A DNA stretch of 64,000 bases from the NCBI RefSeq assembly GCF_027579695.1, contig NC_083587.1, positions 53,699,521-53,763,520 of the forward strand, in the 5' to 3' direction. The notes beneath the pieces are model-generated. The model was not told the origin of the DNA and made no database searches. It worked only from the letters and a program-made list of their open reading frames with translations. This DNA is from Neoarius graeffei. Its lineage: Eukaryota > Chordata > Actinopteri > Siluriformes > Ariidae. Position numbers and translations under genes: made by a program. This document shows positions 25,901-64,000 of this stretch, piece after piece (within the stretch, counting starts at the first letter, position 1; every line of letters begins with the position of its first letter).

Positions 25901-28900
25901 GCGTAACGGATATAGTATTGAATTTGCAATATAGTCAGTCAATATAGTCAAATTATTTATTTGTTAATATGACTAAAGATACAAATCAGATGCTAAGAAA
26001 CATGGATTGTGACAATTTACCACAATATTCATACCATATCCTCATACTGGCCAGAGACAGATAGAAAGCTCATTTATTAAAAAGCAATTTACTTCCAAAG
26101 TAGCTTCTTAATGCAGCTTGTGAGGGTCTGAGTCTCTCAACCGGCACACTGAAAAGGGAGGGAGGACGGGGGGGAGAGACGGTGTCCAGGAGACTCGTCT
26201 GTGAATTTTGAGCTTTTAATGCTTCCAGATGTTTATAATTAGAACCTTGTAACGACGTCTGAGGCACAAGTCATGAGTTTTAAACATGATTGAGGAAAGA
26301 GGCAGTAATGAGTCACTGAACTGCTAATGGTTCATTTTAGCCAGGCACAGCGAGCATCACACTGCTGAGTGAGATTCCTCAGCATGCTAAAAAAGCAGGA
26401 AAGATTAAAGTCCTCCGACTCGAACCCTGAACTCAGAGCCTGTCCGAACTAATCACATCATCGCAAACGGAAAATTTCACACAATACAAATTGAAATAAC
26501 CTGGGCGAGACTGGAAAAGTTTGTTCAGATCAAAGTGTGAGGCCAGAGTGATGATTTGCACTGAAAAGTTTTCCTGAAGAGTGAAGAGGAGAGAGAGAGA
26601 GAGAGAGAAAAACCCCATACCTCTCCACAAAAGAGTCCAACTTGGCCAGCTCGTCGGAGAGTCCGACTAAAACATCTAACGTCCCGACCTGCAGGGGAAC
26701 GAAGAAAGAGACACGGGCTTTGATCAGGAAGCAGCATGATGGAGCAAAGAAAACACAGCCAGCCTGTGTTTGATCAGTCAGAGATTCACACGGCGCCGCT
26801 TCTGTTCTCACCTCATCGGGCATAAACAAACTGATAAAGGGTAAAGGGGTACAAACTGCTGCTATGCGGCAAAGAGGAACGCATACTTTTCATCCTAAAG
26901 CCTAGGTCACAACCGGCCGTACGCGTGTGACGTGCTGATTTTCGAGTCGTAGACTGGCCGCAGAGGTTCTTTGTCATGTCAAACAAACTCTACAGGCGCT
27001 TACGTTTTTTTCAGGTTGCAAGACAAACTTACGGCCAACGTGCGTCTTTCTCCACGAACAAAAAAAACGCAGCGATTTGGGAAACGCCAAAAATCGCACA
27101 GCCAAAAAATCGTACGTCCGGTTGTGACCTAGGCTTAAAGTGTGTAAAGATGTGCAAAGTCAGCGTTATTCGACAACACCAATAATAAATGCATGTAGAT
27201 CAGTGGCGGCTGGTGGGCTTTGAAATAGGGGAAGCTCAGTTTTAGGTCTACGTAATACAATTTTTCAATTATTTGTTATTTGTCATGAGTCAATTTGTTA
27301 TGTGGGTCTGTAAAAGATTTATTCCTTTGTAAATTGTAAGGATTTATTCTTAATTGTAAAGGATTTAGTCTGTGACCTTCTGTCTCAGCTAGACATAGTA
27401 CTGTCGTAATGACATATTGCTCGAGATGTAATATTGATATCTTTTTGAACATTCTATCAGAACATATTGCCCTGTGCTATCGCTGACCTAAAGCTGTGCG
27501 TAAGAAATGGCCTTTGATATCTGTCTGCACATTGCTATCATATCATAAGAACATTCTGCTTATTATTGATGGAGATAATTTGACCTGCCCAGACCAAGGT
27601 CTCCTCACTCGCACGCAAGTCTGCACCCCCCCCACACACACACACACACAGCTGATGTCATACTCACACACACAGCTGCAGTGATGTCACCTCCTCCACA
27701 CAGATAACACACACACATAAAATCCCCTGTATTTTCTTGCCTCTTTGGGGACTTGTGAATAAAGATTGTGAACTCATGGGGTTCCTGTCTTTTTTCGCGA
27801 CTCACCCCAGAGCGGCTCTGGGTGACATGGGGGGACTGATCTCGAGATGGTGTAATCGCTCTGGCTGAGGCTGAGGGCAAAAGGTGAAGAAATCTAACAG
27901 GGTCTGTCTCAGAAACCGGTCTCTCATTTGGGACAATATGGTCAAAAAATACATTTTCTAATTTTACTATTTTTTTTGCATTTACCGAACACTCAATGTT
28001 TCTTTTATCATGTTTAATAAGAATAAAGATAGCGTCTTGCTTTATCTGGCCTCCACTGTGGAATTCTTTTTTTATTACGATTCAAATGTTTTTGTAAAAT
28101 TTTTTGAAAACATTGAAAAAATTTCCTCTTTTTGATTGCTTGGGTTAAAAATGCCAAGTTATGATGACTGAATTGATTATTCACTTAAATATGAATAATA
28201 CAATACCATTTTGGGTCTTGATATGGCGAAACAGGACACAATGGAAAAATCAAGAACACACCGGAAAGATGAGAATAACGGCGCTGGTAAAAGAACAGCG
28301 ACTGTACCGGCTGAAGGTCGCGCGGGTCTCTGCTGCGGCGCGCGAGCAACGGGACATCACTACCCCACCGGACGGAGCGCGAGGCAGGGGCAGGGCAAAA
28401 TGACTGGCTGTAGATTCTATCAAAAGTTCGATCTAAATTGACCATGGTTGCAAAATATTGGCCAAAAATACGCAAACACTACGAAATATGAAAGTAAGAT
28501 GAAAAAGAAACATTCTATTGCCTTATACTGCAAGACTAAAACAAAATAAAACTGTCAAAACTCACTTTTTCAGTGATAACATCTGAACAGATCACTTGCA
28601 TAACAGAAAGATCGCAAATGGAAGCACGATCAACTTCTAACTGTTGGAGTGGAAAATTCCATTCTACACATGCAAATTGTTAATGTGTGTCCTTCCCCGC
28701 ACACAAATAACACGCTACGGTAAAAAATAGACCACAACTCATTTTATAGCTCAGAAATTCATACAAGACCAGCTACCATCGCAACATATTCTGTAAGAAA
28801 CATATTCTATACCTAACTTTCAGCTTTCGATTTAAAAAACAAAATCGCAGATTTATAACTAAATTTTTATATGGCGTAGTGATTTTAAGTTACTACTTTC

Positions 28901-31900
28901 GGTGAGGTCGTGACCTTGACCCTGAGGCTTTCCGTTTAGATCAAAACACACGATCGTATTGGTTTTGGGTCTGCGAAAAATGGAGTTACAACGGTGATCA
29001 GATATTTTGCATGATGTTTTATTACGGTTATGATTATTCTGTAAGCGCACCAATCCTTAGGTGTATAAAGTTACAACTTAAAATACAATTAGTGATAACT
29101 GTAGACTTTTCAGTGGACTACAACCTTTTTAAGGGAATGTGATGTAGCCAACCGTTTATCATGTCCCAGATCAAGCCGCCATTTTTCCACAAATTTGCAG
29201 AATTTTTGCCAAATTCTGAATATTCACATCAAAGATTTAGTTTTATCTGTATTATTTCTTTCATCATTTTATTTCAAATTAAAACCAACATCACCATTCA
29301 AAACCGTATAGTTTACTGACTGTGAGTATATTTAGTGGGCTACCCCCGCAGTACCCAGTTCTGAGACAGACCCATTTCTGTGTGAATTGTGCCATGTTCT
29401 ACTCTGACTCTGCCAAGTAAATAATTGTGCACATTAACTTAAGTGTTCCTTGCTTTTCTCATACCTTTGTATGCCCTGTAAAAGTTGGCCAAATCTCCAA
29501 AATTCAGCTTTGACCAAATAATCCATTCCTGGGATGGTCTCATTAAGAGACAAGGCCAACAGTAGATTCTCTTGGTCAAAAGCGCTCCCAGTGAACCAGT
29601 TTACTTTGTCCTACCAAGACAGCTGAAATGAGCGATTGTATCTCCCGGACTTTTGAATTAAATGCATCTTGAGCATTGAGCTGCCTTGTTGTTTAATTCT
29701 GAGCCTCTCCTCATAAGGAAGTGCATCAAATGTCTTCTCCAAAATCAGGTCGACAACATTAGCAACGTTTGCCGTTTTGCATAGCTAACAGCTAGCTAGA
29801 TTTCCTCTTAAAATAAACAGCCTTTACTAAACCGAAACGAAAGCAAATAAAAACTCTCAAACTCTATATTTACGATTTTATTTACAGTACATAGAAATGG
29901 AAATAGGAACTGTATATTGGTAGGAAAAGAACGAGAATGAGCAGCAGCTAGTCTGATGACTTCACTTGCCAACACACCACATAATGGACTGAGCTTGAAT
30001 CCCTCTGATTGATGCGACATAACTTGCTAACTTTAGGACTGCAGTTGTCATGAACAGTTTTGCACTCAAGTTTCCATCAGTGAAGAGTTTATAACATCAA
30101 CCTGACTTCATGTTAAAACTGTTAATGTTATAATCACATTGTCTGTTATCACCCAAATGAGGATGGGTTCCCTTTTGAGTCTGGTTCCTCTCGAGGTTTC
30201 TTCCTCATGTCGTCTGAGGAAGTTTTTCCTTGCCACCGTCGCCACAGGCTTGCGATAGATTAGGGATAAAAATTAGCTCATGTTTAAAGCTATTCAAATT
30301 CTGTAAAGCTGCTTTGCGACAATGTCTACTGTTAAAAGCGCTATACAAATAAACTCGACTTGATAATCACGTTGTCTGTTATCACCCAAATGAGGATGGG
30401 TTCCCTTTTGAGTCTGGTTCCTATCATTTTAAAACGCTGTCAGTCACGACATTCAAAAAGAGATTTCAGAGTTCCTCCCATCATCATACAGAAGCCCAGC
30501 GTCCAGTCCTGCCTTACTGTCAGCGACTCTCCGTAGACCTCCAGTGAAGCCAGGGGTCCGGAAATTACGTTTTAAAAGCATGTTGTCCAATAAATGTCGA
30601 GCTTTGCTGCACAGAGATCAAAGCATATCCGATAGTGGCATTAAACTACAGAGACGCTGAGCATCAGTGGGTTTTCAATGGGTCGTGCTTCCGCAGGCTT
30701 CTATGGAGAAAACTCACGTTATTATGTTATGACCACCAGTAAGAAATAACTGCTGGACAAACTCGCTGTAAAATTGAGCGCTTTCTCGCACAAAATATCG
30801 ATTTGGAATAAGAAAGTTAAGTCGTGTAAATACATATTTAACAGACAAACTTTTTCGTGACATTTTACAGGAAGCTGGGCTTCCTTTGTCGTCTTAGAGG
30901 AGTCACCTCTGATACTGATGCCCTTAACTGTTACAAACTAAAAGATGTTCAACATCACAACCAAGAAAAGGGTGCCAATATTTTACTCTTTAGTAAAGAT
31001 AAAGATGTTTCTGTAAACTTTACCAGACTATGTTAAATTACTGAAGAGAAAAAAAAAAAAAAAAGGGTGGGGCGCAACCACACACCACCATGGCTGAATC
31101 TCTACACACGTAAACACTGGGTCGTCCTTCATCTTACTCCAGGGGCAAAGACAGGTTTTTAATTTGGGCACCATGGCGAGCGTAGCAAGCCTAAATTTTT
31201 TTTTACACTATTTTCGTGCGTAGCGTGCCGAAAATTTTTGACGCATCATTTTTAGTAATTTTTTTAACCAATTATAAATATATCGAGCAATAAAAATAAT
31301 AGAAATTACATAATCCATGTGTAAGTATAAAGTAGTGCTGTATCTAAAAAGTCAAAAGTTTTCTCCAACATTCTGAATAAATAAAGATAAAAATAGTTCA
31401 TGAATTTTTTATATGCATGAAAAATGAGAAACAATATGTAATATCAGTCTATTTGCACAAGAGTATGGGCAGCAGAGAACTTTAAAATCTCAAACAGTGA
31501 AACAATAATGATCTAGAACAATCAAAATATCAAAAATATGACATATGTATCTGTCTAAATCAGGGCTTTGAACCGGTTCAAGGAACGAAAACGAAAACCG
31601 GGAACTTTTTCTATTTCACATGGAACAGAAACGAAACCAGAAACTTTATTATTTTTTATGTTCCGGAACAGAATCGCTTATTAAAAATAATGGTAACCGG
31701 TTAATACCGGTTTTTATTTCGTTCCTCAAAGTTTCCGTAGCCTACAAATAAAAAAAAAGTCATTCTTCTCCTGTGCAAGTTTCTATGACCCACTGGGGTT
31801 CACTTCCTGTGTGACGTTCGCTGACTGAATGGAGAGAGCGGGAGGGTGGACTACTATCACACGTCTACATCTGAAATAAGAGGTAAATATTGCAGTCTAT

Positions 31901-33655: not shown

Positions 33656-33770
33656 CTGAGGCAGGAAAACAGCAAGAGGTCACTTTTATTATATTACGTA
33701 CCAAATCCGACAGGACATGCATGCAGTCTTACTCGATGGAGGTTTTACAAATCACTATATTGCATCTATA

Positions 33771-34047
33771 CTGCAAGTTGGCTTAGTGGTTAGCGTGTCC
33801 GCCTCTCGATCGTGAGTTCTACTAGCGGTCGGGTCATACCAAAGACAATCATAAAAATAATACCTACTGCCGTCTGGCAAGGCACGCTGCAATACAGATT
33901 TGAATGGGGAGTCAAACTCTTGCGGTTATCAGAGGACTAGCCCCCCACTGTAACCCTAGCTACGTAATAGGCGAGAAGCCGAGGGCTACGGAAATGGAGA
34001 TCGGCGCCGCCCTATGCACCACATGGCATGGGAAGGGACTTTGACTG
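33771..34047 (+). mobile_element. tRNA-headed SINE, fourth family
   Basis: Head GGCTTAGTGGTTAGCGTGTC, B-box region GGTCGGGTC, body TCTGGCAAGGCACGCTGCAA and end GGGAAGGGACTTTGACTG. Perfect 14-bp duplication ATATTGCATCTATA at 33757-33770 and 34048-34061. Confidence 0.88.
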
Positions 34048-34186
34048 ATATTGCATCTATATACAAAATAATAGGTTTAAACGGGTTAAAATACATGCCC
34101 TTTGGGCTTCTATGAGAAGTGAGCTTGGAGTATTCTTCTCTCAGAACAAGGAAATGTGTGGACAAGCTCGTTTATGGTAATTACAC

Positions 34187-34731
34187 GTACGCTACAGCAA
34201 CACTCCTTGTAGTAATTTAATTACAGGACAAAAAAAAATAATAATCACAACTCATCATTATCAAAAAGTATTACGGTATGTTTGGACTTCCAAGTGGTGC
34301 AACAGAAACATATTTGCCCAATGATCAGGAGATCACAAGTTCGATTCCTGATGATGCCACAGCTATCCATGTTGTCTGGGTAGAGGGGGATGGCATAGTC
34401 TCTCTCAGCTCAAGATTGTGCTTTCGTTTAATTGTGCTAAGCCATTTGAAAAGATAAGACTGGCTTCAAATAGCTTAGAAGAAGCACGTGTTAGCCTTTC
34501 GCGCTCCCTGATTGATTGCTGTCGTGCAAAAGACCCATGTCTCACTTATGTTAGCAACCATTGTCCTGGGGGACAAGCAAACTTTGTTTGCATACTGAAG
34601 ACAAGCGATATTGAAGATGTCAGACGTCTGTAGTCCGAAGAAAACTACAGCTAAAAAAAGCTTTACTACCGGATTACTTGGATAATCTTAGTCAGAAAGA
34701 CGCAAAGGATAGATAGATGCGGAAATTAGAG
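34187..34731 (+). repeat. Repeat shared, inverted, with the right edge of the window
   Basis: Nearly the whole of 63452-64000 is present here in opposite orientation with scattered substitutions and small indels (for example CTACAGCAACA, TTTGCCCAATGATCAGGAG and CGGATTACTTGGATAATC). It has a tRNA B-box-like GTTCGATTCC near 34341. Homology stops at GGAAATTAGAG on one side and may continue beyond the window on the other. Confidence 0.75.
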
Positions 34732-34734
34732 TTG

Positions 34735-41225: not shown

Positions 41226-42375
41226 ATATTTCAAAAGCTTACTCAAGGGATTCGAACTCACAACCTACTGGTCACTAACCAGTAATCTCCTCCATTCTGG
41301 TCAATTCAAGTGCAGTACATTTGCTTTACTAGAAGGCTCTAGCAGACTATGTAGCGTGTGTAAAATAGTTTATCACCCATGTCAGCTTAAACTTGACTGA
41401 TCCTTAGTCAGTTTAGATGACGTGATGAGTTAACTATATTGATTACAGCCCACAGAGCTTCAAACCTACATTCTCAGCAACAAAGCTAGCTTAGGTTGTT
41501 TTTTTTTTTCTTCTCTCCCTATCTTGATAAATCCCATTAACATTCGCTTCATTGATTTAAAACTACTACAAAAGTAAAAACACAAACATCAGTAAATGCT
41601 TTGGACACTTGTGGTAAAAGGAACTGCAAAGGAAAGGAAATGCAGGACCAAAGTAATAAATATCAGCGATCGGATATAATATATATCCTATCACTCCTTC
41701 AATCAAACTTTAGAGATTTTTTTTCTCTCCTTGGGCTCATGTCTGAAATGGGTGGGTTATACAGGAACTTCACGAGGTTATACTAAAGTCGAGTTTAGGA
41801 AAGTCTATTAGTGGCATTACAAAGGCAGAGGAGGGTTTGTATTCCCAAAACTATTAGTTATGATCACTACGTTTGGCAAAAACATGAGCAAACACAAAAA
41901 TCAAAACGATTAATGTAACAGGCAGGAGGGATCAATGCCACTTCCGTTTTTATTTTTTAACTGTCACTTAACACAAAACACGCTTTTCAGCAGTTTCAGA
42001 ATAAACTGTGTGCCACTGTACTGATGTGATTTCAGCCAGGGGAAGAGATGCTCAATCCCTGCTCCTTCTCTCACACACACACCACCTTCCTCTGCCTCCC
42101 TCTCCATTCACAAACCGGTGCTTGACCACACTCCCGCTGCCACAGTGAAAAAGAATCGTATACTGTCTTGCTCAACGAAATAAACTGCACAGTCTGATAG
42201 TGAATAGACAGGTTGTTCACCAGAAGTTGTGCAATATAGGTGTATAGTCCAATTACACACATTTCCACTCAGCAGTCTTCACCGTTGCAATGATAAAAAA
42301 GGACCTTCTATGTAAACTATCTAATGCACAGGAATAATATTTACATTGTGAAATCAATACTTAATTTTCATTATG
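41226..42375. other. Gene-free stretch
   Basis: A tRNA-like B-box relic on the minus strand near 41250 (GAGTTCGAATCCC) and a fragment near 41625-41660 related to 17262 are the only recognisable items. Confidence 0.25.
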
Positions 42376-50025: not shown

Positions 50026-51435
50026 TCCCCTGCTGGCCGAAAGGCCTGATGGGGGATTATGTCGTGGCAATGTCCGTCTGTCAGTCCATCCGTCCATCTG
50101 TCGCTGGAAAGAGTACTCACCTTCTGAAATCAACTCCTCTCATAATCTTTGGAGGAATTTCAGGAAACTTGACAAGAGGCTTTGTTATATGTCGGTAGTA
50201 CGCATATTGTAATTTCATTAAATTCAGTTGCATTTTACCAGAGTTACAGCCCTTCATTAACAAGCTTGTACTTTCAAAATTTCATGAAGGTGCGCTTGCC
50301 TTCTGACATCAACTCCTCTCACAATTTTTGGATGAACTTCTCAAAGCTTGGCAAAAGGCCTTATTATATGACGGTAATACGCATATTGCGATTTAATTTC
50401 GTTTGTGAGAATTTTACCAGAGTTTTGACTCTTGATTAAATAACTTGTACTCTGACAATTTCAAGAGGGTGTACGTTCTTCTGAAATCAACTTCTCTCAC
50501 AATTTGTGGAGGAATTTCACCAAACTTGGCAAAAGGCTTTGTTATATGACAGTTATACGCAGATTGAAATTTTGTTTAATTTGTGCAAATTTTACCAGAG
50601 TTATGCCTTTGATTATTAACAAACTTGTACTTTGGCAATTTCAACAAGGTGTGCTTGCTTTCTGAAATCAACTTCCCTCACAATTTTTGGAGGAATTTTA
50701 TGCAATTTGGCAAAAAGCTTTTTTTATACCCCGCTGGCCGGAAGGCCCAAAGGGGGATTATGTCGTGGCAATGTCCGTCCATCCATCCCAGGAAGGATAC
50801 TCATTTCATCTCTTTATCTCTAGCCGCTTTATCCTGTTCTACAGGGTCGCAGGCAAGCTGGAGCCTATCCCAGCTGACTACGGGAGAAAGGCGGGGTACA
50901 CCCTGGACAAGTCACCAGGTCATCACAGGGCTGACACATAGACACAGACAACCATTCACACTCACATTCACACCTACGGTCAATTTAGAGTCACCAGTTA
51001 ACCTAACCTGCATGTCTTTGGACTGTGGGGGAAACCGGAGCACCCGGAGGAAACCCATGCGGACACGGGGAGAACATGCAAACTCCACACAGAAAGGCCC
51101 TCGCCGGCCACGGGGCTCGAACCCAGACCTTCTTGCTGTGAGGCTACAGCGCTAACCACTACACCACCGTGCCGCCCCGGGAAGGGTACTCACCTTCTGA
51201 AATCAACTCCTGTCACAATTTTTGGAGGAATTTCACGAAACTTGACAGGATTCTTTGTTATATGTTGGCAATACTCATATTGCAATTGCGTTCAATTCAG
51301 TCGCACTTTACCAGAGTTATGGCCCTTGATTAACAAACTTGTACTTTGACAATTTCATGAAAGCGTATTAAGCACTTATAGCATAGATATAGTTGCCAGC
51401 GGGGGATATTGTGCTCTCAGAGCACTCTTGTTACT
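50026..51435 (+). repeat. Repeat element built of about 178-bp tandem units
   Basis: It starts TTTATCCCCTGCTGGCCGAA and ends TTGCCAGCGGGGGATATTGTG, short inverted ends. Units beginning TTCTGAAATCAACTCCTCTC start near 50122, 50300, 50478, 50658 and, after a SINE, 51195. Each contains GGAGGAATTTCAC, CTTTGTTATATG and TTTACCAGAGTTA. A second start (TATACCCCGCTGGCCGGAAG) lies at 50727. Confidence 0.75.
50804..51179 (-). mobile_element. tRNA-headed SINE, family A
   Basis: Full length. Duplication GGAAGGATACTCA (50791-50803) against GGAAGGGTACTCA (51180-51192), one mismatch. It sits inside the tandem-unit element. Confidence 0.92.
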
Positions 51436-51439
51436 TTTA

Positions 51440-51918
51440 TTCTGGTGCAAGCAAGCAGTCAGATATGAAGCTCACGTGACAAAGAAAGATCAGGGTCATG
51501 CTTTGTTGTCAGTAGAGAGTGTGTTATTAACAGTTAGCAACTGCATGTCACTCATGGGTCATTAAATGAGGCTACTGCGTTAAATTTTTGGGAAACAGAA
51601 CCAATGAAATTAAATAGAAAATAGAGCAGGCAGGTACAAACAAAAATGATAACTGTGCCAAAGAGATTAAAAAAGTTCAGCACACATTTCTAGTTGAAAC
51701 CAATTATGAACTTTCGCAATGCAGCTGAGGTTGAGGAACTGTCAGACAGAATTCACACATCGTGCTAACACTGCTGGTAAACTTCTACCTCTTGTCAGTA
51801 AAGGTACTTAGAATGGCAGCGCTGGTCAAACTACAAACATGGCCACTCAGAACTACGACGCCCAAAGAGCACAGCGCTCTCTGTCACCAGCTTATTGAAA
51901 TCAGATGTCGTTCATTCA
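51440..51918. other. Left flank of the inverted twin; possible LTR-like sequence
   Basis: No ORF. The last 120 bases (CACAGCGCTCTCTGTCACC and ATTGAAATCAGATGTCG) look like teleost LTR-retrotransposon flanking sequence and seem to continue in the inverted spacer end at 58990. That continuity is an inference. Confidence 0.3.
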
Positions 51919-52531
51919 CAACTCATCAGAGGTGGAAAGTAACGAATTACATTACTCGCGTTACTGTACTTGAGTAGCTTTTTTGTGTACTTATACTTTT
52001 TCAAGTAATTTTTAAAGAGTGTACTTTTACTTTTACTTAAGTATGTTTTCTTTTAAGTAGTGTACTTCAGTACATTTTACATCACAACCGTTACTGAGTA
52101 AAAAAATAAAAAAATAAAAAATTTTAAAAAGGCTAAAACGGAGAAGGGGAAATGCGTTCTGGAAATGAATCACGGGAAGGACAGTTGTCGCGCGCGCAAG
52201 TCTCACACAGACGATGGCGGACATGCACCGGCGCTTTAAGGGGGGGGGCTTCAGGGGGCTCAAGCCCCTGGGCCACAGCCAATCAGGGGCCTTGTAATAT
52301 TAATAAAATAATAAACTGTCGGAATCGTGGGCCTACATTAATGTACGGATAGAAATAAGGTTAGAAATAAATGAGCGCACAGTAGCCTGCTGTAAGAGAC
52401 ATGGTGGATGTGGTTCGCGAAACGAACACCCACAACTGCACCAGAATAAAATGGAACAAAATGTAACGTCACGCACGAAAGCGCGCCAAAGACTGCAGAC
52501 TACTGAGACACAAATTTAGAGGCTTTGAAAG

Positions 52532-52627
52532 ATGAAGCGTTCACATGTTAGCGGGGCGCATAAAAGGAAAAAAAGAGAGATGCAGGTAATGATAGAATCG
52601 TTGCCTAAAGTCACAGACTTTTTTAAG
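52532..52627 (+). CDS. ZMYM1-like hAT first exon, copy 1
   Basis: MKRSHVSGAHKRKKREMQVM to LPKVTDFFK, 32 codons, ending in phase 0 at GTAAGG (52628). This short, lysine-rich first exon is typical of the ZMYM1-like hAT proteins. No TTF finger or transposase exons were recognised downstream. The same exon is at 62740-62835 on the minus strand. Confidence 0.5.
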
Positions 52628-53493
52628 GTAAGGATCACCAATCTGTTCAGAATATCAGCTACTTATCAGTTATCAGCCTACCAGCAGCTAGGCTATGTGC
52701 AGCTAGGCTAGATATGCTATGATCTGTCCAACAGTAAAATAAATCAGTTGTGATTTGAATACGTGTCGTGTGATTTGAGTTATAATCCTGTTAGTATAAT
52801 AGCATATTTTGATGGGGATAATAAAATGTCTAAAACGGCATCTACTGAAGAAATTGATGAAAAGATTGTAGCCTATAATGTTCACAGTTCGGGCAGCAGA
52901 CAGAGTAAGCATACTGAGGGGAATAGCAATACAAAGCTAGCGCAGATCCACATTTCTCGCTAGCTGTGTTGGGTGTGTTGTTAACCCGTGTGGATTTAAG
53001 TGAAATACTTGAGAAGTTCTGTGGTCAAGACAATGTTTTAAGGTAAGGACACTTGATTATTAATGTTTGCCCGCCGTGGCTTGTTGTTGACGAAAGGCCC
53101 ACATGATTTTGCCTTATGCAGCTACCGCTAGCGTCATGCTTTGAACTAGGTTAAGCTCATTTGCGCTAAAGGATGGGTTTATTGAAGGACTTTGATGTAG
53201 CTAGTTTCTTTTTAAAAAATCGTATGCTCAAAACAGTATGCCCGTGTTCATCATGTTTAACTTTTTTCTTGATGGAGTGCGTGAAATATTGTTGCAAGTG
53301 GTATTTCGATGCAGTCATGTCAAAAAGGCAGTTGAATGCACGGTCTTATTCAAGGAGAAGGAAGACTTGGATGATGCTTGAACATAGATCGGTAAAATAG
53401 ACCCTAGTAGGACTTGGTTTCGTGTATTTCGGTCTGTAGAGTTATGAGTTTGGGCGCTGTCCATGGTGTTTACGTTTCATGTGGCCGCCGAGC

Positions 53494-54559
53494 CAAGAAC
53501 CTTCATCATCATCATCATGTTCCCCTGTCAAAAGTTAAACTCTCTAGGGGTGCTTCTGCTGTAGCAGTTGCAGCAGTTGCTCAAAGTTTGATTTGTCCAT
53601 CATCATACGTCTTATCTGTTGGGTGTCTATGCCCAGCAGATTTTCCCATTTCGTCCATTTGTAACCATTTTTGTCAAACAGGAGCTGCTTTTGCACTTGG
53701 TTATTGCCCATCCGGCAAACGTGAGCAATATATTTTAGTTGTTGTACGTAGCAGGATAGTTTTATATCCTGGGTCCCTGTCAGTTTCCGGAGGTCAGCAT
53801 TGGACATCTTGGAGCTCCAGTCTATATCTTCATTTGTAGTGTTCTTTTGGTCAGGAGCATTCTTTCGTTTATATCCACCTTTAATCATTTTCCTTAGGAA
53901 GCCGTGCCACACTACCTCAATTTTGTGAATTTCACTGGATGATAGTTGCCATGCCTGTGTGCTGTACAGGAGACGAGATCGAACGCATGCCACTAGGAAC
54001 TTTATACAGGTTTTTAGTAGTATTCGGTGGTCGGTTAGAACATGTTTCAGTTCATTCCATTTCATGAATGCAGCACTTATCCTAGCATGCAGGAAGTGTG
54101 AGGATTCATCACAGTTGCTGACATTATAACCAAGATATTTAAAGGTGCGGACGTTTTTAATATTAGTGCCGCCAAGGGAAATGATACTTGGTTTACATTT
54201 GATATCCTCATTGACGTTAAAAGCCATTGTTTCTGTTTTGACGTATGATATTTGTAAACCAAAGCGGGTGTAGGTCTTATCATACAACTGAAGAATATTC
54301 TGAAGCTCCTCGATGGATCCAGCGAGTATGGCCTGATCATCTGCGTATAGAATCTCTGTTATGCAACCCTCTCCTGATGCTCGTGCTTTCGTACGCATTT
54401 CTCTTGTGGATACCTCATTTGGAATGCAATATCTGAACTTGAAGCCTGTATCTGGGTACAGTTTTGATATCTCATGCTGTGCAATCCTGACAACAAAGTC
54501 CATATAGATATTAAAAACTGATGGCGATTCTAGGGCACCTTGTCTTGCAGTGAATGTTT
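53494..54559 (-). mobile_element. LINE fragment in composite element copy 1
   Basis: 5'-truncated LINE with an ATG/GAT repeat tail (CATCATCATCATCAT on the plus strand at 53504-). In copy 2 coordinates its flanks GCTCGGCGGCATGAAAAC and GCTCGGCGGCCACATGAAAC form a target duplication of about 17 bp with a 3-base indel. It inserted before the composite was duplicated. Confidence 0.75.
53544..54503 (-). CDS. Reverse transcriptase C-terminal ORF, copy 1 (319 codons, open)
   Basis: The frame is open from upstream of the ATG: in-frame FTARQGALESPSVFNIY (motif B, RQG) precedes MDFVVRIAQHE. Then come ITEILYADDQAILAGS (motif C, YADD) and KYLGYNVSN, with a C-terminal region ending QQKHP and stop. The fingers and motif A are missing, so it cannot be an active RT. 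The clade looks RTE-like but is not certain. No stop has accumulated, which fits a recent insertion or recent duplication. Confidence 0.75.
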   Translation of the reverse strand: MDFVVRIAQHEISKLYPDTGFKFRYCIPNEVSTREMRTKARASGEGCITEILYADDQAILAGSIEELQNILQLYDKTYTRFGLQISYVKTETMAFNVNEDIKCKPSIISLGGTNIKNVRTFKYLGYNVSNCDESSHFLHARISAAFMKWNELKHVLTDHRILLKTCIKFLVACVRSRLLYSTQAWQLSSSEIHKIEVVWHGFLRKMIKGGYKRKNAPDQKNTTNEDIDWSSKMSNADLRKLTGTQDIKLSCYVQQLKYIAHVCRMGNNQVQKQLLFDKNGYKWTKWENLLGIDTQQIRRMMMDKSNFEQLLQLLQQKHP

Positions 54560-55020
54560 GTTTTCATGCCGCCGAGCTATTTTTATGTATTTTATTTTTT
54601 AAAAGGACTTGTCTGTAGGTGTGTGTGTTTTATGTTTACAACACATAGGTCTACATTAGCGCACGCGCGCTTGTGTGGTTATCTCTGGCCATGCCCCTGC
54701 GTGAAAGTTACGCAGTATCACTGTCCTGTCCGTGGTAATAATCAGAACCGGCTCTGTAATGATAATGCGCGCGTTCTTCTCTCCCTCTGTGGTCGGATGT
54801 GTTGAGCGATGTGAGCGTGGGCCTTGCGCAGCTACGCTGTGCCAAACGTAATCTATCATAGGCTTCTAGGCTAATTACACGCTTACACTGTAAATGCTTG
54901 ACACGTATTGCAAATAAAATAAGAGTGTTTTCCTGGCCAACGGTAAGGGTAGGGTTGACAGGTAGCCTATGAGGGGCCTAGCCCCTGGGCCACGGGTGTT
55001 GATAAAGCACCCCTGTGGAC

Positions 55021-55236
55021 ATGGAGGAGACTGAGGAACCTGTGGTGGACGACCCTGCAGAAAATGCAATTTCTTCCAGTAATGAAGTGCACCCCTGGCC
55101 CTACATACGTGATCACTTCAGCTTCGTAGAGAAAAGGGGTGACAGTTTCATTATGCAATGCAGATTATGTGTGCCCAAGAAGACAACCATTGCGGAATAC
55201 AAAAATTCGACGTCTAATCTGCGCAAGCATGTTGAG
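55021..55236 (+). CDS. BED-type zinc-finger exon, copy 1
   Basis: MEETEEPVVDDPAENAISSS leads to a BED finger: the aromatic start HPWPYIRDHFSFV, then CRLC (Cys pair) and LRKHVE. The second His is expected in the next exon. It ends at GTAAGT (55237). BED fingers are the N-terminal DNA-binding domains of many hAT transposases. The next exon was not recognised. A GTG-started extension upstream is possible but the ATG at 55021 is preferred. Confidence 0.65.
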
Positions 55237-55262
55237 GTAAGTATTGTCATTGGCATCATAAT

Positions 55263-55663
55263 CACGGGTGCAGATAGAGGGTGGGACGGGTGGGATTCGT
55301 CCCACTCAGATTTAAATTCACCTCGTTCGGTCCCCCCCACTTATAGGGAGGAAAAAACGTCTATGCTATCTTTCTTTGCATAAGGCAAACCTCACGGAAA
55401 AATCAAAAGACTAATTACCATTCGGTTTATTGAGGTGCACGGCAGTGTATACATAGTTGCAACAACTCACATAAAACAAAACAAAGACTGATATTCGGTT
55501 GGTTGAACTGCGCAGACTGCACAGGTTGCGAGCTCGAGCTTGGTTGCTATGGTTACCCACAACAAGTTTGACAGGCATATTGGGGTTGGGGTTGGTTTGC
55601 TGGCAGCTTTGTCCCCCCCAGTTTTTTGTCCCCCCCAGTTCAAAAAACGTATCTGCGCCCCTG
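55263..55663. mobile_element. Nested 401-bp hAT MITE, copy 1
   Basis: Ends CACGGGTGCAGATA and TATCTGCGCCCCTG, with perfect 8-bp duplication ATCATAAT at 55255-55262 and 55664-55671. Non-coding. Present at the same place in copy 2. Confidence 0.92.
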
Positions 55664-56888
55664 ATCATAATGTTTCCTTTCCATAGTAAAACCGACAATA
55701 GGCTGGTTATATTCCAAAAATAGTGGATGGCATTGCTAATGTTGAAGTAGCAACCTGTTGGTACTGTAACATAACGGTAACTAGTCTGTTATTCGGTTGG
55801 CTAATCATGCAAGCAAGTTAGCTCGCCAACCTGACGTGATCAGTCCTCCTACCATTCTACATCCAACAGGCCAGAAAGGAATACTAAGCAAAACAAATAA
55901 TGTTTGAATTGAATTGTTCAATAACACACAGTGCACACAGGCAAGCTATGAGATTTTGGTGCAACATTTCACTTTCATAGTTCATGTACAATGCTTTGTG
56001 TGTGGTCAGGGCGATGTAAACGACATGACTGTGTGTATTGACCTTTTTTGTTTGTCTCAGTTTTAATGCAGCATTATCCTAAGCATTCACTTTGATACAC
56101 TTCCTTTAAATAAAACATCTGGGTTGAGATGTACATATATCCTTGTTTCCTCTTCTTTTTCATTTTTGCACAACACAATGGAGGCAGAAAACACCCATTG
56201 TTAAAAGTAACGTTTTACTTTTACTCAAAGTACATTTTAAATGATCTACTTTTTACTTTTACTTGAGTAGATTTTTTGTCTGGTAACTTTACTTGTACTT
56301 AAGTAAAATTTCATCAGAGTAACATTACTTGTACTTGAGTATAATATTTTAGTACTCTTTCCACCTCTGTTCAATACTAAGCCATACGTGTCCAATTGAT
56401 CCATGTCATCTACTTTAGTTTTATGATAAAGTTGTTCCATTTACTTTAAGATAACTAATATATCTTACATTCATGTACGTTTCTAATAATATACACAATT
56501 TTTATATACATACACACAGTTTCTGGTTGATTTGGGATTCTCCTGATGGCAGGTGCATGTCCAAATAACCAACACATGAAATATAAGAGGGGATGTAAAG
56601 TCTCCTTTTAAATGTATATTTTTAAAGACCAGTACTTCTTACTACTTCTCCTTGTTACGCTGTGCTGACTTGACATGCGGCTACAATTTTTTTGGCTCGT
56701 TTTCTGCCATGTTAATAATTGAAAATCACTGAATTCCCAGAAGCTAGCTAGTTCTACCCTACCACATAACAGCGGTCAACCAATTAGTGTCAGCTAATAA
56801 TCCAAAGGATTACATCATCGGGCTGAATGCATTGAAGGGAAGCCAATTCTGTAGACACAATTCAAGAGACACATGTAACTGTCTAGTG

Positions 56889-58296
56889 CAGGGGTCATCA
56901 AACTCCGGCCCGCAACCCCCCTTTGACTGGCCCCCCAGCCCCCCACCACTTGAACCGGCCCTATGAGGCAATCCCCAAAAGTGGTCATGGCCTATTTTTT
57001 TAAATTGCTTTTTGGCAAATAATAACATGTCTGCATCTTGTATTTTGTTGATTTTATCAATTAAAATTGATATTTAGTTATAAAATTAATTATTCATATT
57101 TTCAGAATTTTCATCATATGCTCGCGATCAAGCAGTGACAGGCAGCGCACGCGCAGAGAACTGTCAGTGTTTTTAGGACAGCAAAATGGATAGCGGTCAG
57201 CGAAAAGCTGACAGAGAGTGCAGAGTTTTTAAAGCACAGTGGACCACCGATTATTTTTTCGTTCAGTGTAAGGACCGTGCAGTTTGTCTTGTATGTAAAG
57301 AAAGTGTGTCGGTTTTCAAAGAATATAATCTGCGTCGTCACTACGAAACCCACCACAAAGAGTATGCTAGTTTGCGAGGGCAAACAAGAGAAGACAGGAT
57401 TCGGAGGATGAAATGCGGACTGGCTGCACAACAGAATGTATTCTTTCGCCAAACCCAGATCAACCAGGCTGCTGTCCGAGCTAGCTATAAAGTAGCTCAC
57501 CTACTAGCTACCCATGGAAAGCCGTTTACTGATGGGGACTTTGTTAAAGTATACATGCTTGCTGTGGCCGAGGAAGTGTGTCCCGACAAGAAGGATGCGC
57601 TCAACACGGTGAGTCTCTCCGCACCTACTATGACCAGGCGAACCGAAGATTTGGGGGACAACGTGTATGACCAGCTGAATGAGAAAACATCAGAATTCGA
57701 GTTTTTTGCTTTGGCCATGGATGAGAGCAATGACGTGCAGGACACAGCACAACTGCTGTGATCTATTGATCTATTGCTCATATTATTATAATTTCACTGT
57801 TTTTTTAAATGTATTTATTTTATAGGCCTATTTATTTGACCTTTATTAAGTGCTGCACACAATTATTATTAATATTATTAATAATATCAACAGGCCTACC
57901 TACAATTTATAATTTTCCACTCACCTTTGCCAGTGTCAATCACCTCAACTAGGCAGATGTTATTTTTATTAGAAAATAAATAAATGGAATATCTGTGGTA
58001 TTTCAAATTAAAACAAAGTGTGAAGACTTGATTACTACTTTTGCAAACCACTAGTAAAGATAAACAAATATGTGCCAGGAATCAAGTGTTGATATAGTAG
58101 TGTTGATATAGTAGTGTGGATATAGTAGTGGGGATGGCTGTGCCAGGCTAGTAATCTCTACTACACAATGAGGCCTGCTGGTGGTCATATTTGTCTGGGT
58201 CATACAATTCTGTTATATACCTGACCCGACCCCGGCCCCCCATCACAGTCAGGAACGACAATGTGGCCCCCAGAGAAAAAAGTTTGGTGACCCCTG
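56889..58296 (+). mobile_element. hAT element in the spacer, internally deleted
   Basis: The ends CAGGGGTCATCAAACTCCGG and AAGTTTGGTGACCCCTG are inverted repeats. A perfect 8-bp duplication GTCTAGTG lies at 56881-56888 and 58297-58304. It encodes only the N-terminal part of a transposase. Short tandem TTGATATAGTAGTG units lie at 58088-58130. Confidence 0.94.
57186..57761 (+). CDS. N-terminal hAT transposase ORF with zinc finger, 191 codons
   Basis: MDSGQRKADRECRVFKAQW then a C2H2-type finger (CLVC … HYETHH) at residues 38-57. These are followed by RIRRMKCGLAAQQNVFF, AHLLATHGKPFTDG and FFALAMDESNDVQDTAQLL, the order seen in GTF2IRD2/ZBED5/SCAND3-like hAT proteins. MDES includes a candidate catalytic Asp. 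A TGA follows AQLL, and the remaining catalytic and hATC parts are deleted, leaving AT-rich sequence. It is an intact reading frame for a DNA-binding, catalytically incomplete protein. Confidence 0.85.
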   Translation: MDSGQRKADRECRVFKAQWTTDYFFVQCKDRAVCLVCKESVSVFKEYNLRRHYETHHKEYASLRGQTREDRIRRMKCGLAAQQNVFFRQTQINQAAVRASYKVAHLLATHGKPFTDGDFVKVYMLAVAEEVCPDKKDALNTVSLSAPTMTRRTEDLGDNVYDQLNEKTSEFEFFALAMDESNDVQDTAQLL

Positions 58297-58304
58297 GTCT
58301 AGTG

Positions 58305-58989
58305 TCACTCTGATTGACATTGAGAAAGAAGTGACATCATTCCCACCCAAAGAGATTGGACTCCCATCAATGGATGATGGATTCAAACTCTTGACCTGCC
58401 GAACACTTGGGCTATATTGACATTGCAAACAACTTCTCCTCTTCCTCTTTCTTCTTCTTCTTTGAACACTACTTGATTTTAATAGGCTCCTTCCAGTTTT
58501 TCTGTTCGAATATCAAGTAACTCACCAATTTCTCCATCCCTCCACTAAATATAGTCACTTTTGTTGCTGAAATCCATTGTTTTTTGCCACATTGTCATCC
58601 CTGGATGAAGACGATTGCAATCTGACCGTTCTCATTCATGACACATGACCACATATCATATACGTATTCGAATTAGAACCACATATGAAAGTGGCTTTTG
58701 TCTCATTTGAAAAAAAAAAATCAGAAATTTATGTCCACACAGATTTGTGCCTCTTCAACCTGGTAATAAGAACATAGTCTTAGAATGTTGTGCCACTGAG
58801 GAGCTTCTAAAATGGATCCTTTTGGCATGAACAAAATATATAGGGTTAAGAGTAATAACACCAAAGTTCTGGCCAGGTTCAGAAATACTAGAGTCAGGCA
58901 GAGATAGAAAGGCTTGGTATGGACTGGAAAACACAGAACAATACTTTGCACTGAAGGTGTGTGAGGAAGAGGCTTAAGTAGGGTGGCTA
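58305..58989. other. Spacer right part, no gene
   Basis: A tRNA-like B-box relic near 58380 (GGATTCAAACTC) and sequence that, inverted, may join the left flank of copy 1. No coding potential. Confidence 0.3.
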
Positions 58990-59703
58990 ATGAGTTGCAG
59001 AGGTGGAAAGAGTACTAAAATATTATACTCAAGTACAAGTAGTGTTACTCTGATGAAATTTTACTTAAGTACAAGTAAAGTTACCAGACAAAAAATCTAC
59101 TCAAGTAAAAGTAAAAAGTAGATCATTTAAAATGTACTTTGAGTAAAAGTAAAACGTTACTTTTAACAATGGGTGTTTTCTGCCTCCATTGTGTTGTGCA
59201 AAAATGAAAAAGAAGAGGAAACAAGGATATATGTACATCTCAACCCAGATGTTTTATTTAAAGGAAGTGTATCAAAGTGAATGCTTAGGATAATGCTGCA
59301 TTAAAACTGAGACAAACAAAAAAGGTCAATACACACAGTCATGTCGTTTACATCGCCCTGACCACACACAAAGCATTGTACATGAACTATGAAAGTGAAA
59401 TGTTGCACCGAAATCTCGTAGCTTGCCTGTGTGCACTGTGTGTTATTGAACAATTCAATTCAAACATTATTTGTTTTGCTTAGTATTCCTTTCTGGCCTG
59501 TTGGATGTAGAATGGTAGGAGGACTGATCACGTCAGGTTGGCGAGCTAACTTGCTTGCATGATTAGCCAACCGAATAACAGACTAGTTACCGTTATGTTA
59601 CAGTACCAACAGGTTGCTACTTCAACATTAGCAATGCCATCCACTATTTTTGGAATATAACCAGCCTATTGTCGGTTTTACTATGGAAAGGAAACATTAT
59701 GAT

Positions 59704-60104
59704 CAGGGGCGCAGATACGTTTTTTGAACTGGGGGGGACAAAAAACTGGGGGGGACAAAGCTGCCAGCAAACCAACCCCAACCCCGATATGCCTGTCAAA
59801 CTTGTTGTGGGTAACCATAGCAACCAAGCTCGAGCTCGCAACCTGTGCAGTCTGCGCAGTTCAACCAACCGAATATCAGTCTTTGTTTTGTTTTATGTGA
59901 GTTGTTGCAACTATGTATACACTGCCGTGCACCTCAATAAACCGAATGGTAATTAGTCTTTTGATTTTTCCGTGAGGTTTGCCTTATGCAAAGAAAGATA
60001 GCATAGACGTTTTTTCCTCCCTATAAGTGGGGGGGACCGAACGAGGTGAATTTAAATCTGAGTGGGACGAATCCCACCCGTCCCACCCTCTATCTGCACC
60101 CGTG
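59704..60104. mobile_element. Nested 401-bp hAT MITE, copy 2
   Basis: The same MITE and ATTATGAT duplication as in copy 1, read on the other strand. Confidence 0.92.
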
Positions 60105-60130
60105 ATTATGATGCCAATGACAATACTTAC

Positions 60131-60346
60131 CTCAACATGCTTGCGCAGATTAGACGTCGAATTTTTGTATTCCGCAATGGTTGTCTTCTTGGGCACACAT
60201 AATCTGCATTGCATAATGAAACTGTCACCCCTTTTCTCTACGAAGCTGAAGTGATCACGTATGTAGGGCCAGGGGTGCACTTCATTACTGGAAGAAATTG
60301 CATTTTCTGCAGGGTCGTCCACCACAGGTTCCTCAGTCTCCTCCAT
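60131..60346 (-). CDS. BED-type zinc-finger exon, copy 2
   Basis: Same translation as 55021-55236. The donor GTAAGT lies at 60130-60125. Confidence 0.65.
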
Positions 60347-60807
60347 GTCCACAGGGGTGCTTTATCAACACCCGTGGCCCAGGGGCTAGGCCCCTCATAG
60401 GCTACCTGTCAACCCTACCCTTACCGTTGGCCAGGAAAACACTCTTATTTTATTTGCAATACGTGTCAAGCATTTACAGTGTAAGCGTGTAATTAGCCTA
60501 GAAGCCTATGATAGATTACGTTTGGCACAGCGTAGCTGCGCAAGGCCCACGCTCACATCGCTCAACACATCCGACCACAGAGGGAGAGAAGAACGCGCGC
60601 ATTATCATTACAGAGCCGGTTCTGATTATTACCACGGACAGGACAGTGATACTGCGTAACTTTCACGCAGGGGCATGGCCAGAGATAACCACACAAGCGC
60701 GCGTGCGCTAATGTAGACCTATGTGTTGTAAACATAAAACACACACACCTACAGACAAGTCCTTTTAAAAAATAAAATACATAAAAATAGCTCGGCGGCA
60801 TGAAAAC

Positions 60808-61873
60808 AAACATTCACTGCAAGACAAGGTGCCCTAGAATCGCCATCAGTTTTTAATATCTATATGGACTTTGTTGTCAGGATTGCACAGCATGAGATAT
60901 CAAAACTGTACCCAGATACAGGCTTCAAGTTCAGATATTGCATTCCAAATGAGGTATCCACAAGAGAAATGCGTACGAAAGCACGAGCATCAGGAGAGGG
61001 TTGCATAACAGAGATTCTATACGCAGATGATCAGGCCATACTCGCTGGATCCATCGAGGAGCTTCAGAATATTCTTCAGTTGTATGATAAGACCTACACC
61101 CGCTTTGGTTTACAAATATCATACGTCAAAACAGAAACAATGGCTTTTAACGTCAATGAGGATATCAAATGTAAACCAAGTATCATTTCCCTTGGCGGCA
61201 CTAATATTAAAAACGTCCGCACCTTTAAATATCTTGGTTATAATGTCAGCAACTGTGATGAATCCTCACACTTCCTGCATGCTAGGATAAGTGCTGCATT
61301 CATGAAATGGAATGAACTGAAACATGTTCTAACCGACCACCGAATACTACTAAAAACCTGTATAAAGTTCCTAGTGGCATGCGTTCGATCTCGTCTCCTG
61401 TACAGCACACAGGCATGGCAACTATCATCCAGTGAAATTCACAAAATTGAGGTAGTGTGGCACGGCTTCCTAAGGAAAATGATTAAAGGTGGATATAAAC
61501 GAAAGAATGCTCCTGACCAAAAGAACACTACAAATGAAGATATAGACTGGAGCTCCAAGATGTCCAATGCTGACCTCTGGAAACTGACAGGGACCCAGGA
61601 TATAAAACTATCCTGCTACGTACAACAACTAAAATATATTGCTCACGTTTGCCGGATGGGCAATAACCAAGTGCAAAAGCAGCTCCTGTTTGACAAAAAT
61701 GGTTACAAATGGACGAAATGGGAAAATCTGCTGGGCATAGACACCCAACAGATAAGACGTATGATGATGGACAAATCAAACTTTGAGCAACTGCTGCAAC
61801 TGCTACAGCAGAAGCACCCCTAGAGAGTTTAACTTTTGACAGGGGAACATGATGATGATGATGAAGGTTCTTG
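60808..61873 (+). mobile_element. LINE fragment in composite element copy 2
   Basis: It starts near the in-frame FTARQG and ends in GATGATGATGAT. Duplication of about 17 bp at 60790-60807 and 61874-61893 with a 3-base difference. Confidence 0.75.
60864..61823 (+). CDS. Reverse transcriptase C-terminal ORF, copy 2 (319 codons, open)
   Basis: It differs from copy 1 at one residue seen (Trp for Arg in the LWKLTG stretch, from a CpG-type transition). Otherwise it is the same ORF with YADD and no stops. Confidence 0.75.
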   Translation: MDFVVRIAQHEISKLYPDTGFKFRYCIPNEVSTREMRTKARASGEGCITEILYADDQAILAGSIEELQNILQLYDKTYTRFGLQISYVKTETMAFNVNEDIKCKPSIISLGGTNIKNVRTFKYLGYNVSNCDESSHFLHARISAAFMKWNELKHVLTDHRILLKTCIKFLVACVRSRLLYSTQAWQLSSSEIHKIEVVWHGFLRKMIKGGYKRKNAPDQKNTTNEDIDWSSKMSNADLWKLTGTQDIKLSCYVQQLKYIAHVCRMGNNQVQKQLLFDKNGYKWTKWENLLGIDTQQIRRMMMDKSNFEQLLQLLQQKHP

Positions 61874-62739
61874 GCTCGGCGGCCACATGAAACGTAAACA
61901 CCATGGACAGCGCCCAAACTCATAACTCTACAGACCGAAATACACGAAACCAAGTCCTACTAGGGTCTATTTTACCGATCTATGTTCAAGCATCATCCAA
62001 GTCTTCCTTCTCCTTGAATAAGACCGTGCATTCAACTGCCTTTTTGACATGACTGCATCGAAATACCACTTGCAACAATATTTCACGCACTCCATCAAGA
62101 AAAAAGTTAAACATGATGAACACGGGCATACTGTTTTGAGCATACGATTTTTTAAAAAGAAACTAGCTACATCAAAGTCCTTCAATAAACCCATCCTTTA
62201 GCGCAAATGAGCTTAACCTAGTTCAAAGCATGACGCTAGCGGTAGCTGCATAAGGCAAAATCATGTGGGCCTTTCGTCAACAACAAGCCACGGCGGGCAA
62301 ACATTAATAATCAAGTGTCCTTACCTTAAAACATTGTCTTGACCACAGAACTTCTCAAGTATTTCACTTAAATCCACACGGGTTAACAACACACCCAACA
62401 CAGCTAGCGAGAAATGTGGATCTGCGCTAGCTTTGTATTGCTATTCCCCTCAGTATGCTTACTCTGTCTGCTGCCCGAACTGTGACAATTATAGGCTACA
62501 ATCTTTTCATCAATTTCTTCAGTAGATGCCGTTTTAGACATTTTATTATCCCCATCAAAATATGCTATTATACTAACAGGATTATAACTCAAATCACATG
62601 ACACGTATTCAAATCACAACTGATTTATTTTACTGTTGGACAGATCATAGCATATCTAGCCTAGCTGCACATAGCCTAGCTGCTGGTAGGCTGATAACTG
62701 ATAAGTAGCTGATATTCTGAACAGATTGGTGATCCTTAC

Positions 62740-62835
62740 CTTAAAAAAGTCTGTGACTTTAGGCAACGATTCTATCATTACCTGCATCTCTCTTTTTTTC
62801 CTTTTATGCGCCCCGCTAACATGTGAACGCTTCAT
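62740..62835 (-). CDS. ZMYM1-like hAT first exon, copy 2
   Basis: Twin of 52532-52627, ATG at 62835. Confidence 0.5.
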
Positions 62836-63451
62836 CTTTCAAAGCCTCTAAATTTGTGTCTCAGTAGTCTGCAGTCTTTGGCGCGCTTTCGTGCGTGACG
62901 TTACATTTTGTTCCATTTTATTCTGGTGCAGTTGTGGGTGTTCGTTTCGCGAACCACATCCACCATGTCTCTTACAGCAGGCTACTGTGCGCTCATTTAT
63001 TTCTAACCTTATTTCTATCCGTACATTAATGTAGGCCCACGATTCCGACAGTTTATTATTTTATTAATATTACAAGGCCCCTGATTGGCTGTGGCCCAGG
63101 GGCTTGAGCCCCCTGAAGCCCCCCCCCTTAAAGCGCCGGTGCATGTCCGCCATCGTCTGTGTGAGACTTGCGCGCGCGACAACTGTCCTTCCCGTGATTC
63201 ATTTCCAGAACGCATTTCCCCTTCTCCGTTTTAGCCTTTTTAAAATTTTTTATTTTTTTATTTTTTTACTCAGTAACGGTTGTGATGTAAAATGTACTGA
63301 AGTACACTACTTAAAAGAAAACATACTTAAGTAAAAGTAAAAGTACACTCTTTAAAAATTACTTGAAAAAGTATAAGTACACAAAAAAGCTACTCAAGTA
63401 CAGTAACGCGAGTAATGTAATTCGTTACTTTCCACCTCTGCCACTAATAAA

Positions 63452-64000
63452 CTCTAATTTCCACGTCTATCTATCCTTTGCGTCTTTCTGACTAAGATTA
63501 TCCAAGTAATCCGGTAGTAAAGCTTTTTTTAGCTGTAGTTTTCTTCGGACTACAGATGTCTGACATCTTCAATATCGCTTGTCTTCAGTATGCAAACAAA
63601 GTTCGCTTGTCCCCCAGGACAAGGCTAACAACGGTTGCTAACATAAGTGAGACATGGGTCTATTGCACAACAGCAACCAATCAGGGAGCGCGAAAGGCTA
63701 ACACATGCTTCTTCTAAGCTATTTGAAGCCAGTCTTATCTTTTCAAACAGCTTAGCACAATTAAACGAAAGCACAATCTTGAGCTGAGAGAGACTATGCC
63801 ATCCCCCTCCACCCAGACAACATGGATAGCTGTGGCATCATCATGAATTGAACTTGTGATCTCCTGATCATTGGGCAAATATGTTTCTGTTGCACCACTT
63901 GGAAGTCCAAACATACCGTAATACTTTTTGATAATGATGAGTTGTGATTATTATTTTTTTGTCCTGTAATGAAATTACTACAAGGCGTGTTGCTGTAGCG
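63452..64000 (-). repeat. Inverted partial copy of 34187-34731, cut by the window edge
   Basis: It matches through to the last base of the window, with a few indels (for example around 63605-63640). The junction with the composite is TTTATTAGTGG, while at 34731 the shared sequence passes into an L1 poly(A). Confidence 0.75.

Follow-up and report, generated by a model that had tools for sequence, protein, structure and literature searches.

The window analyzed here (i.e., the whole stretch of 64,000 nt at positions 53,699,521-53,763,520 of the forward strand of Neoarius graeffei NC_083587.1; all coordinates below are window positions) contains two copies of a 4443-bp composite hAT element in opposite orientations, denoted arm A and arm A', around a spacer. 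A repeat search returned them as the single long inverted pair in the window, with 4443 nt in each arm and 2628 nt between them, and a blastn comparison of A against A' presents 99.820% identity, 8 mismatches and 0 gaps. This gap-free pair bears out the twin of two 4443-bp copies around a spacer of about 2.6 kb proposed in an earlier note on this DNA, whose count of about six substitutions must be raised to eight according to the base-by-base alignment. That some substitutions fall at CpG sites, as the note had added, is also correct: five of the eight (arm positions 842, 1863, 3655, 4023 and 4031, counted in element orientation) are transitions at positions where most family copies have a CpG. 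At arm position 4399 (56325 / 59042), the arms have T and C in element orientation, and the 16 other copies aligned have G. The features of the locus are presented in Table 1.

Table 1. Features of the inverted hAT twin and its flanks (L, left; R, right; MITE, miniature inverted-repeat transposable element; LINE, long interspersed nuclear element; GPCR, G-protein-coupled receptor).
Feature	Positions	Strand	Remarks
Dispersed repeat, first half, cut at T1	51793-51926	+	38 of the 40 scored matches of query 51400-51926
Target 8-mer T1, CAACTCAT	51919-51926	+	At L end of A
Arm A, 4443-bp composite hAT element	51927-56369	+	L end outside, R end towards spacer
LINE reverse-transcriptase fragment nested in A	53544-54563	-	339-codon open frame, RVT_1
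BED zinc-finger exon in A	55015-55239	+	zf-BED; mirror in A' 60128-60352 (by arithmetic)
hAT MITE, 401 bp, nested in A	55263-55663	+	ATCATAAT on both sides; mirror in A' 59704-60104 (by arithmetic)
Inverted spacer, 2628 bp	56370-58997	.	Without inner transposon, 87-92% like C1 intron of GPCR-like gene (gene read by eye)
Flank x, TTCAATAC	56370-56377	+	At R end of A, contiguous with spacer
hAT-like element inside spacer, 1408 bp	56889-58296	+	Ends read by eye; duplication GTCTAGTG at 56881-56888 and 58297-58304
Same dispersed repeat, second half, inverted	58872-58997	-	7.07 kb from first half
T1 in reverse complement, ATGAGTTG	58990-58997	-	At R end of A'
Arm A', second inverted copy	58998-63440	-	R end towards spacer, L end outside
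Flank y, CCACTAAT on + strand, ATTAGTGG in element orientation	63441-63448	-	At L end of A'; unlike x
Second dispersed repeat, right part	63441-63655	+	Left part expected on other side of A'

The arms are members of a multi-copy family, non-autonomous as far as seen. Searching the genome (2.34 Gb, 38 contigs) with a 2-kb piece of arm A yielded 1662 first-look candidates, 40 of which were scored: both arms and 38 others, the latter 96-98% identical over the matched part. Nineteen of these 38 were retrieved, and 17 of them have both element ends, the remaining two being L023, with a truncated left end, and L027, which has an internal rearrangement and runs off the retrieved stretch. Among the 17 two-ended copies, the target duplication is an exact 8 bp in 12, agrees at seven of eight positions in one (L012), and is unmatched in four (L017, L018, L021 and L026); the left terminus CAGAGGTGGA is substitution-free in 15 and the right terminus TCCACCTCTG in 16. 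An 8-bp target duplication and short terminal inverted repeats common to the copies place the arms in the hAT superfamily. When four pieces (three from the arm, one from the spacer) were scanned for a transposase, the arm gave BED and reverse transcriptase, and its longest open reading frame is the 339-codon reverse-transcriptase fragment; a non-autonomous hAT copy need not hold a transposase. The label "composite" given in the earlier note is true of the whole family, and is not particular to this locus. A search for partner junctions of unmatched flanks (both ends of L017, the left end of L026) returned one match each, none being the junction sought: one is a right end of the arm family where a left end was sought, and two lie outside the arm family.

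Family members also occur as neighbors elsewhere. On C27, L014 joined with L037 forms an inverted pair 211 bp apart, in which each copy has its own intact 8-bp duplication and one is without the MITE. On C7 (L058-L060), the same-orientation start of another copy lies 140 bp beyond a copy whose GTGGTGAG duplication is intact; this second copy was seen for its first 910 bases, its right end being absent at the place inspected.

In element orientation, the border 8-mers read CAACTCAT-element-TTCAATAC for A and ATTAGTGG-element-CAACTCAT for A'; neither arm has matching 8-mers of its own, and CAACTCAT is common to the left end of A and the right end of A'. The left flank belongs to a dispersed repeat, for which a search with query 51400-51926 yielded 1920 candidates, with 40 scored and six copies (L051-L056) read. 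All six cross the T1 position, with exact CAACTCAT in four and one or two changes in two. Past T1, they read (C/T)A(A/G)CC(A/G)CACTACTTAAGC, and the right end of the spacer reads TAGCCACCCTACTTAAGC in reverse complement. The second half of the repeat directly follows the first in all six, with differing lengths (longest in L052). A query of 60 + 60 bp joining the left flank to the inverted spacer end can be aligned through the junction to all six copies at 87.5-91.7%; the alignment is full-length for three of them, and for the remaining three it covers bases 1-96, bases 1-113 and the last 119 bases. Given that every repeat copy read runs through T1 into the inverted spacer end, A plus the spacer is inverted relative to the left flank. 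The split repeat is direct evidence of inversion, or of an assembly showing it so, and it is highly probable that a stretch of ~7.1 kb (A plus spacer) was inverted with both breakpoints exactly at hAT element ends. An assembly artefact had been among the explanations offered in the earlier note. In the form of a plain fold-back chimera it was rejected, as the flanks are not mirror images, and it is unlikely because independent repeat copies explain the inverted target 8-mer at the borders; in the form of a mis-oriented spacer it is very improbable, and is weighed below.

Duplications in this family are of 8 bp, and x (TTCAATAC) and y (ATTAGTGG) do not form one. The 8-mer x and the sequence that follows it are found in a single C1 paralog with no element beside them, and the exact junction of TTCAATAC with a left element end has 0 matches in the genome. 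The junction expected for the partner of y, ATTAGTGG after CCACCTCTG, has three exact genome matches, all in another sequence and not in the arm element. Beyond A', a search with the right-flank repeat produced 1888 candidates, with 40 scored and six copies (L040-L045) read, and in all six the repeat continues leftward past the A' border (GATCATAA in five, GATCCTCA in one). These copies point to A' having been inserted within the right-flank repeat at CCACTAAT, or to an adjacent deletion having ended there. When the upstream stretches of the six copies were compared by blastn, no left half-repeat was found across A', in the window, in the 9.5 kb before it or in about 19 kb after it; the sole match is an unrelated dispersed repeat in one query. 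A 9-base match to the y flank at 41806-41814 was considered as a left-arm counterpart of y and rejected as fortuitous, because what lies beyond it disagrees with the repeat.

For the relatedness of the arms, 16 copies were aligned with them, i.e., the 19 retrieved less L012 (insertion), L014 (missing MITE) and L027 (rearrangement); against arm A, their largest gap is at most 11 bp, save in L023, which lacks 91 bases at its left end. The arms differ from each other at 0.18% of sites and from the other copies at 1.53-2.30%, and pairs of other copies differ at 0.95-2.58%. Twenty-three (23) substitutions are found in both arms and in none of the 16 other copies; the number of private substitutions in a single copy is 10-39. 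At 60 family-variable sites, the arms agree at 58 (in contrast with a mean of 78% and a maximum of 94% for the 120 pairs of other copies). These values suggest the arms come from one normally aged copy that was later doubled, or were almost completely homogenized. Of the very recent duplication or gene conversion put forward in the earlier note, a recent common origin is thus supported by these comparisons, and gene conversion stays compatible with them, given six of the eight differing positions are family-variable. Apart from the twin, the most similar two of the aligned copies are L009 and L010 on C11, which lie inverted 130 kb apart with 0.95% difference and perhaps reflect an older local hop. 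The segregation of the eight differences by arm part was considered as a test of the flip and discarded: in A the derived states fall on the right (3655-4399) and in A' on the left (842-1863), a distribution that crossing-over makes neither more nor less likely and that does not tell flip from no flip.

An ordinary family, arms closest to each other, a shared inverted T1, a split repeat, unmatched x and y and a missing half-repeat together make alternative (reversed-ends) transposition the likeliest source of the inversion. Given four of the 17 other copies are unmatched, recombination is not improbable, and we hold the transposition reading with confidence just under half. It would start from two neighboring hAT copies in the same orientation; same-direction neighbors of this kind occur in the family, as in the C7 pair. 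The transposase would pair the left end of one copy with the facing right end of the other, and the paired ends would enter a single 8-bp target CAACTCAT, which lay to the left within the dispersed repeat. The DNA reaching from the target up to the first copy would thereby be turned round, with each inserted end receiving one T1 copy and the two unmoved ends keeping their old unrelated 8-mers, x and y. The DNA between the two parental copies would be lost, and this segment would begin with GTATTGAA beside the left end and finish with GGATCATAACCACTAAT beside the right end. In agreement with such a course, each breakpoint presents an element, in opposite orientation, and the unmoved ends have two different 8-mers; bearing on the lost segment, the half-repeat was not found beyond A' or nearby and the exact x partner has no match in the genome. 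We infer that transposase rather than recombination caused the flip, and that the near-identical copies stem from a short hop. PMC8225341 describes alternative transposition as leaving both elements with 8-bp repeats at their ends and as losing the inter-transposon fragment, in contrast with recombination. In PMC2775673, aberrant transposition of copies at separate sites leads to inversion with deletion or duplication, and recombination leads to exchanged target duplications and chimeric copies.

Several observations weigh against reversed-ends transposition. The window has five further occurrences of CAACTCAT or its complement; hence the 8-mer alone proves little, and the case relies on the split repeat and on where the 8-mer lies, namely at the ends of the elements. 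The reading of x relies on one paralog (L030), and a loose search for a 17-base motif of the half-repeat, with at most 4 mismatches allowed, turned up 12 matches at scattered places, including one in the inner transposon of the spacer; these are taken for chance. The lost segment is itself conjectural. With four of 17 other copies unmatched, an unmatched A' could predate an ordinary recombination flip, to which nearly identical arms of 4.4 kb separated by 2.6 kb lend themselves well; their near identity needs a second step (a short hop or gene conversion) under reversed-ends transposition too. Lastly, both bases are present among the 16 other copies at six of the eight differences (842, 954, 955, 1863, 3655 and 4031), which incomplete homogenization of two older copies also fits.

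Recombination accordingly retains a considerable probability, although one well short of even. It supposes that one copy inserted itself, inverted, in CAACTCAT after a hop of 2.6 kb, with an ordinary duplication on either side. A crossover between the two inverted copies would then have reversed the spacer and carried one CAACTCAT across to the opposite arm, and the copy that had not hopped would already have lacked a flank. Before the flip, the left copy would have been CAACTCAT-element-CAACTCAT and the right one an inverted, unmatched GTATTGAA-element-CCACTAAT, and the spacer would have had the opposite direction. This yields the same T1 arrangement, unmatched copies are common in the family, and inverted neighbors exist, as the C27 pair with its own duplication for each copy; moreover, hAT-rich inversion breakpoints in Atlantic cod are ascribed to ectopic recombination in PMC12368964. 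However, both duplications should then be exchanged, and T1 is exchanged whereas x and y are mismatched, nor was the repeat half expected beyond A' found. Given there is only one matching duplication pair and a repeat half is missing, recombination needs one extra event. Transposition of a hybrid element between sister chromatids is unlikely. It would start with one copy flanked by x and y, its left end on one chromatid entering CAACTCAT together with its right end on the sister, and would explain the near-identical arms and T1 in a single step by a process described for Ac (PMC8225341). Yet it expects x and y to be equal, and as they differ an already unmatched donor is needed, such as the four of 17 in the family.

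More doubtful still is mis-orientation of the spacer by the assembly between two real inverted copies, which we regard as very improbable. A turned spacer would give A an ordinary CAACTCAT duplication, and the error would look like a recombination flip. Against this, the assembly is of chromosome scale (38 contigs, C20 of 70 Mb) with no N in the window, and the missing repeat half beyond A' would be left unexplained; current long reads span 11.5 kb. We give the lowest probability, marginally below that, to two independent older copies made alike by gene conversion, which concerns the likeness of the arms and can be combined with any inversion mechanism. Inverted arms can convert each other, and the six positions at which the arms differ by bases both present in the family favor it, though only 492 of 4441 columns of the family alignment vary; 954 and 955 are non-CpG. 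The other four are CpG sites, at which the same change may have recurred by decay. The agreement at 58 of 60 sites, against the 78% mean, would require conversion over almost the full length and up to both ends, and gene conversion alone leaves T1 unexplained. The whole twin as one transposing unit, or as a composite insertion, was rejected: the outer flanks CAACTCAT and CCACTAAT agree at six of eight positions only, and the repeat data give y another origin. For composite insertion in maize, PMC4270019 leads one to expect a new 8-mer on both outer sides.

The nested cargo of the element agrees for the most part with the earlier description. The 401-bp hAT MITE is established by the ATCATAAT on both sides and by an empty site in family copy L014, from which exactly these 401 bp are missing. 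The LINE fragment matches Pfam RVT_1 with an E-value of 1.2e-10, and the BED exon matches Pfam zf-BED with an E-value of 2e-4 and 21.7 bits (cut-off 20.6), so that both had been correctly recognized; the "ZMYM1-like" exon, of 32 amino acids, has no Pfam match and was not confirmed. Because this cargo is common to family copies, the nested insertions are no evidence of a special link between the arms. Within the spacer, the hAT-like element is absent from the C1 paralog and holds an open reading frame with a Spin-doc zinc finger. The GPCR-like gene on C1 is one we take to be opioid-receptor-like.

The twin adjoins the inner edge of a larger inverted segmental duplication, which comprises 17366-34733 (- strand) and 63450-64000 and continues at least 18.6 kb past the window. 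Homology stops at 34734 in its left arm, at the apparent poly-A end of a minus-strand LINE, and 9 bp from A' in its right arm. The left arm includes the first coding exon of V-ATPase subunit C1 at 33515-33646 (- strand; Pfam V-ATPase_C, E-value of 6.6e-8; PDB chains named subunit C 1), whose counterpart lies just past the right end of the window by alignment (64141-64434 versus 33477-33770). In twelve blocks, one of them (12078-12729) out of order, 186 of 6768 aligned bases differ (2.75%), a divergence around fifteen times the 0.18% of the arms. Judged by these divergences, the twin would be younger than the segmental duplication if rates are alike and no conversion renewed the arms.

If reversed-ends transposition is true of this locus, the same process may have left its traces in the four of 17 unmatched copies, and small inversions and deletions would arise regularly by alternative transposition in hAT-rich genomes like this one. 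The papers cited suggest that transposon-associated inversions are usually credited to recombination. At this locus, the target duplications are readable and point towards transposase, or at least make the two causes separable. All four junctions are readable, as each lies either within a dispersed repeat or next to a paralog, and the dispersed repeats that run through the target site act as built-in empty-site controls, which could be used to count such events genome-wide. A limited search of open-access literature found no natural vertebrate case read at all four junctions. We tentatively propose, with rather less than even confidence, that the twin is a natural hAT reversed-ends inversion in a vertebrate-like genome that is readable at all four.

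Tol2-like hAT elements of fish have 8-bp duplications and CAGAGGTG-type ends. In comparison with these, the arm family is non-autonomous as far as seen, 4.4 kb long, and has a cargo of LINE, MITE and BED exon. The hAT/MITE-rich inversion breakpoints of Atlantic cod (PMC12368964) are similar in presenting hAT-derived non-autonomous elements in a fish, and differ in that the inversions are large, contain tandem MITE arrays and are ascribed to ectopic recombination; the term "target site duplication" is absent from the main text of that study as far as available. The Galileo inversions of Drosophila buzzatii (PMC2775673) are also natural, with two opposite copies of a cut-and-paste transposon and target duplications that were read. 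Galileo, however, belongs to the P superfamily and makes 7-bp duplications, and there both duplications are exchanged and the copies are chimeric, hence recombination, whereas in the twin only one duplication pair matches and one flank is missing. The mechanism is already known from maize Ac/Ds, and the twin is likely a natural example of it in a vertebrate-like genome. The Ac/fAc reversed-ends inversions of maize, as described in PMC8225341, share with the twin hAT ends at both breakpoints, a common 8-bp duplication at the junctions, and the placing of the copies, one within the inverted piece and the other immediately beyond it; the DNA between the copies was lost in maize, as it would have been here. 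In maize the parent allele is known and the inversions are of ~81 kb, whereas here the parent is reconstructed, the inversion is of 7.1 kb, and the copies are non-autonomous and near-identical.

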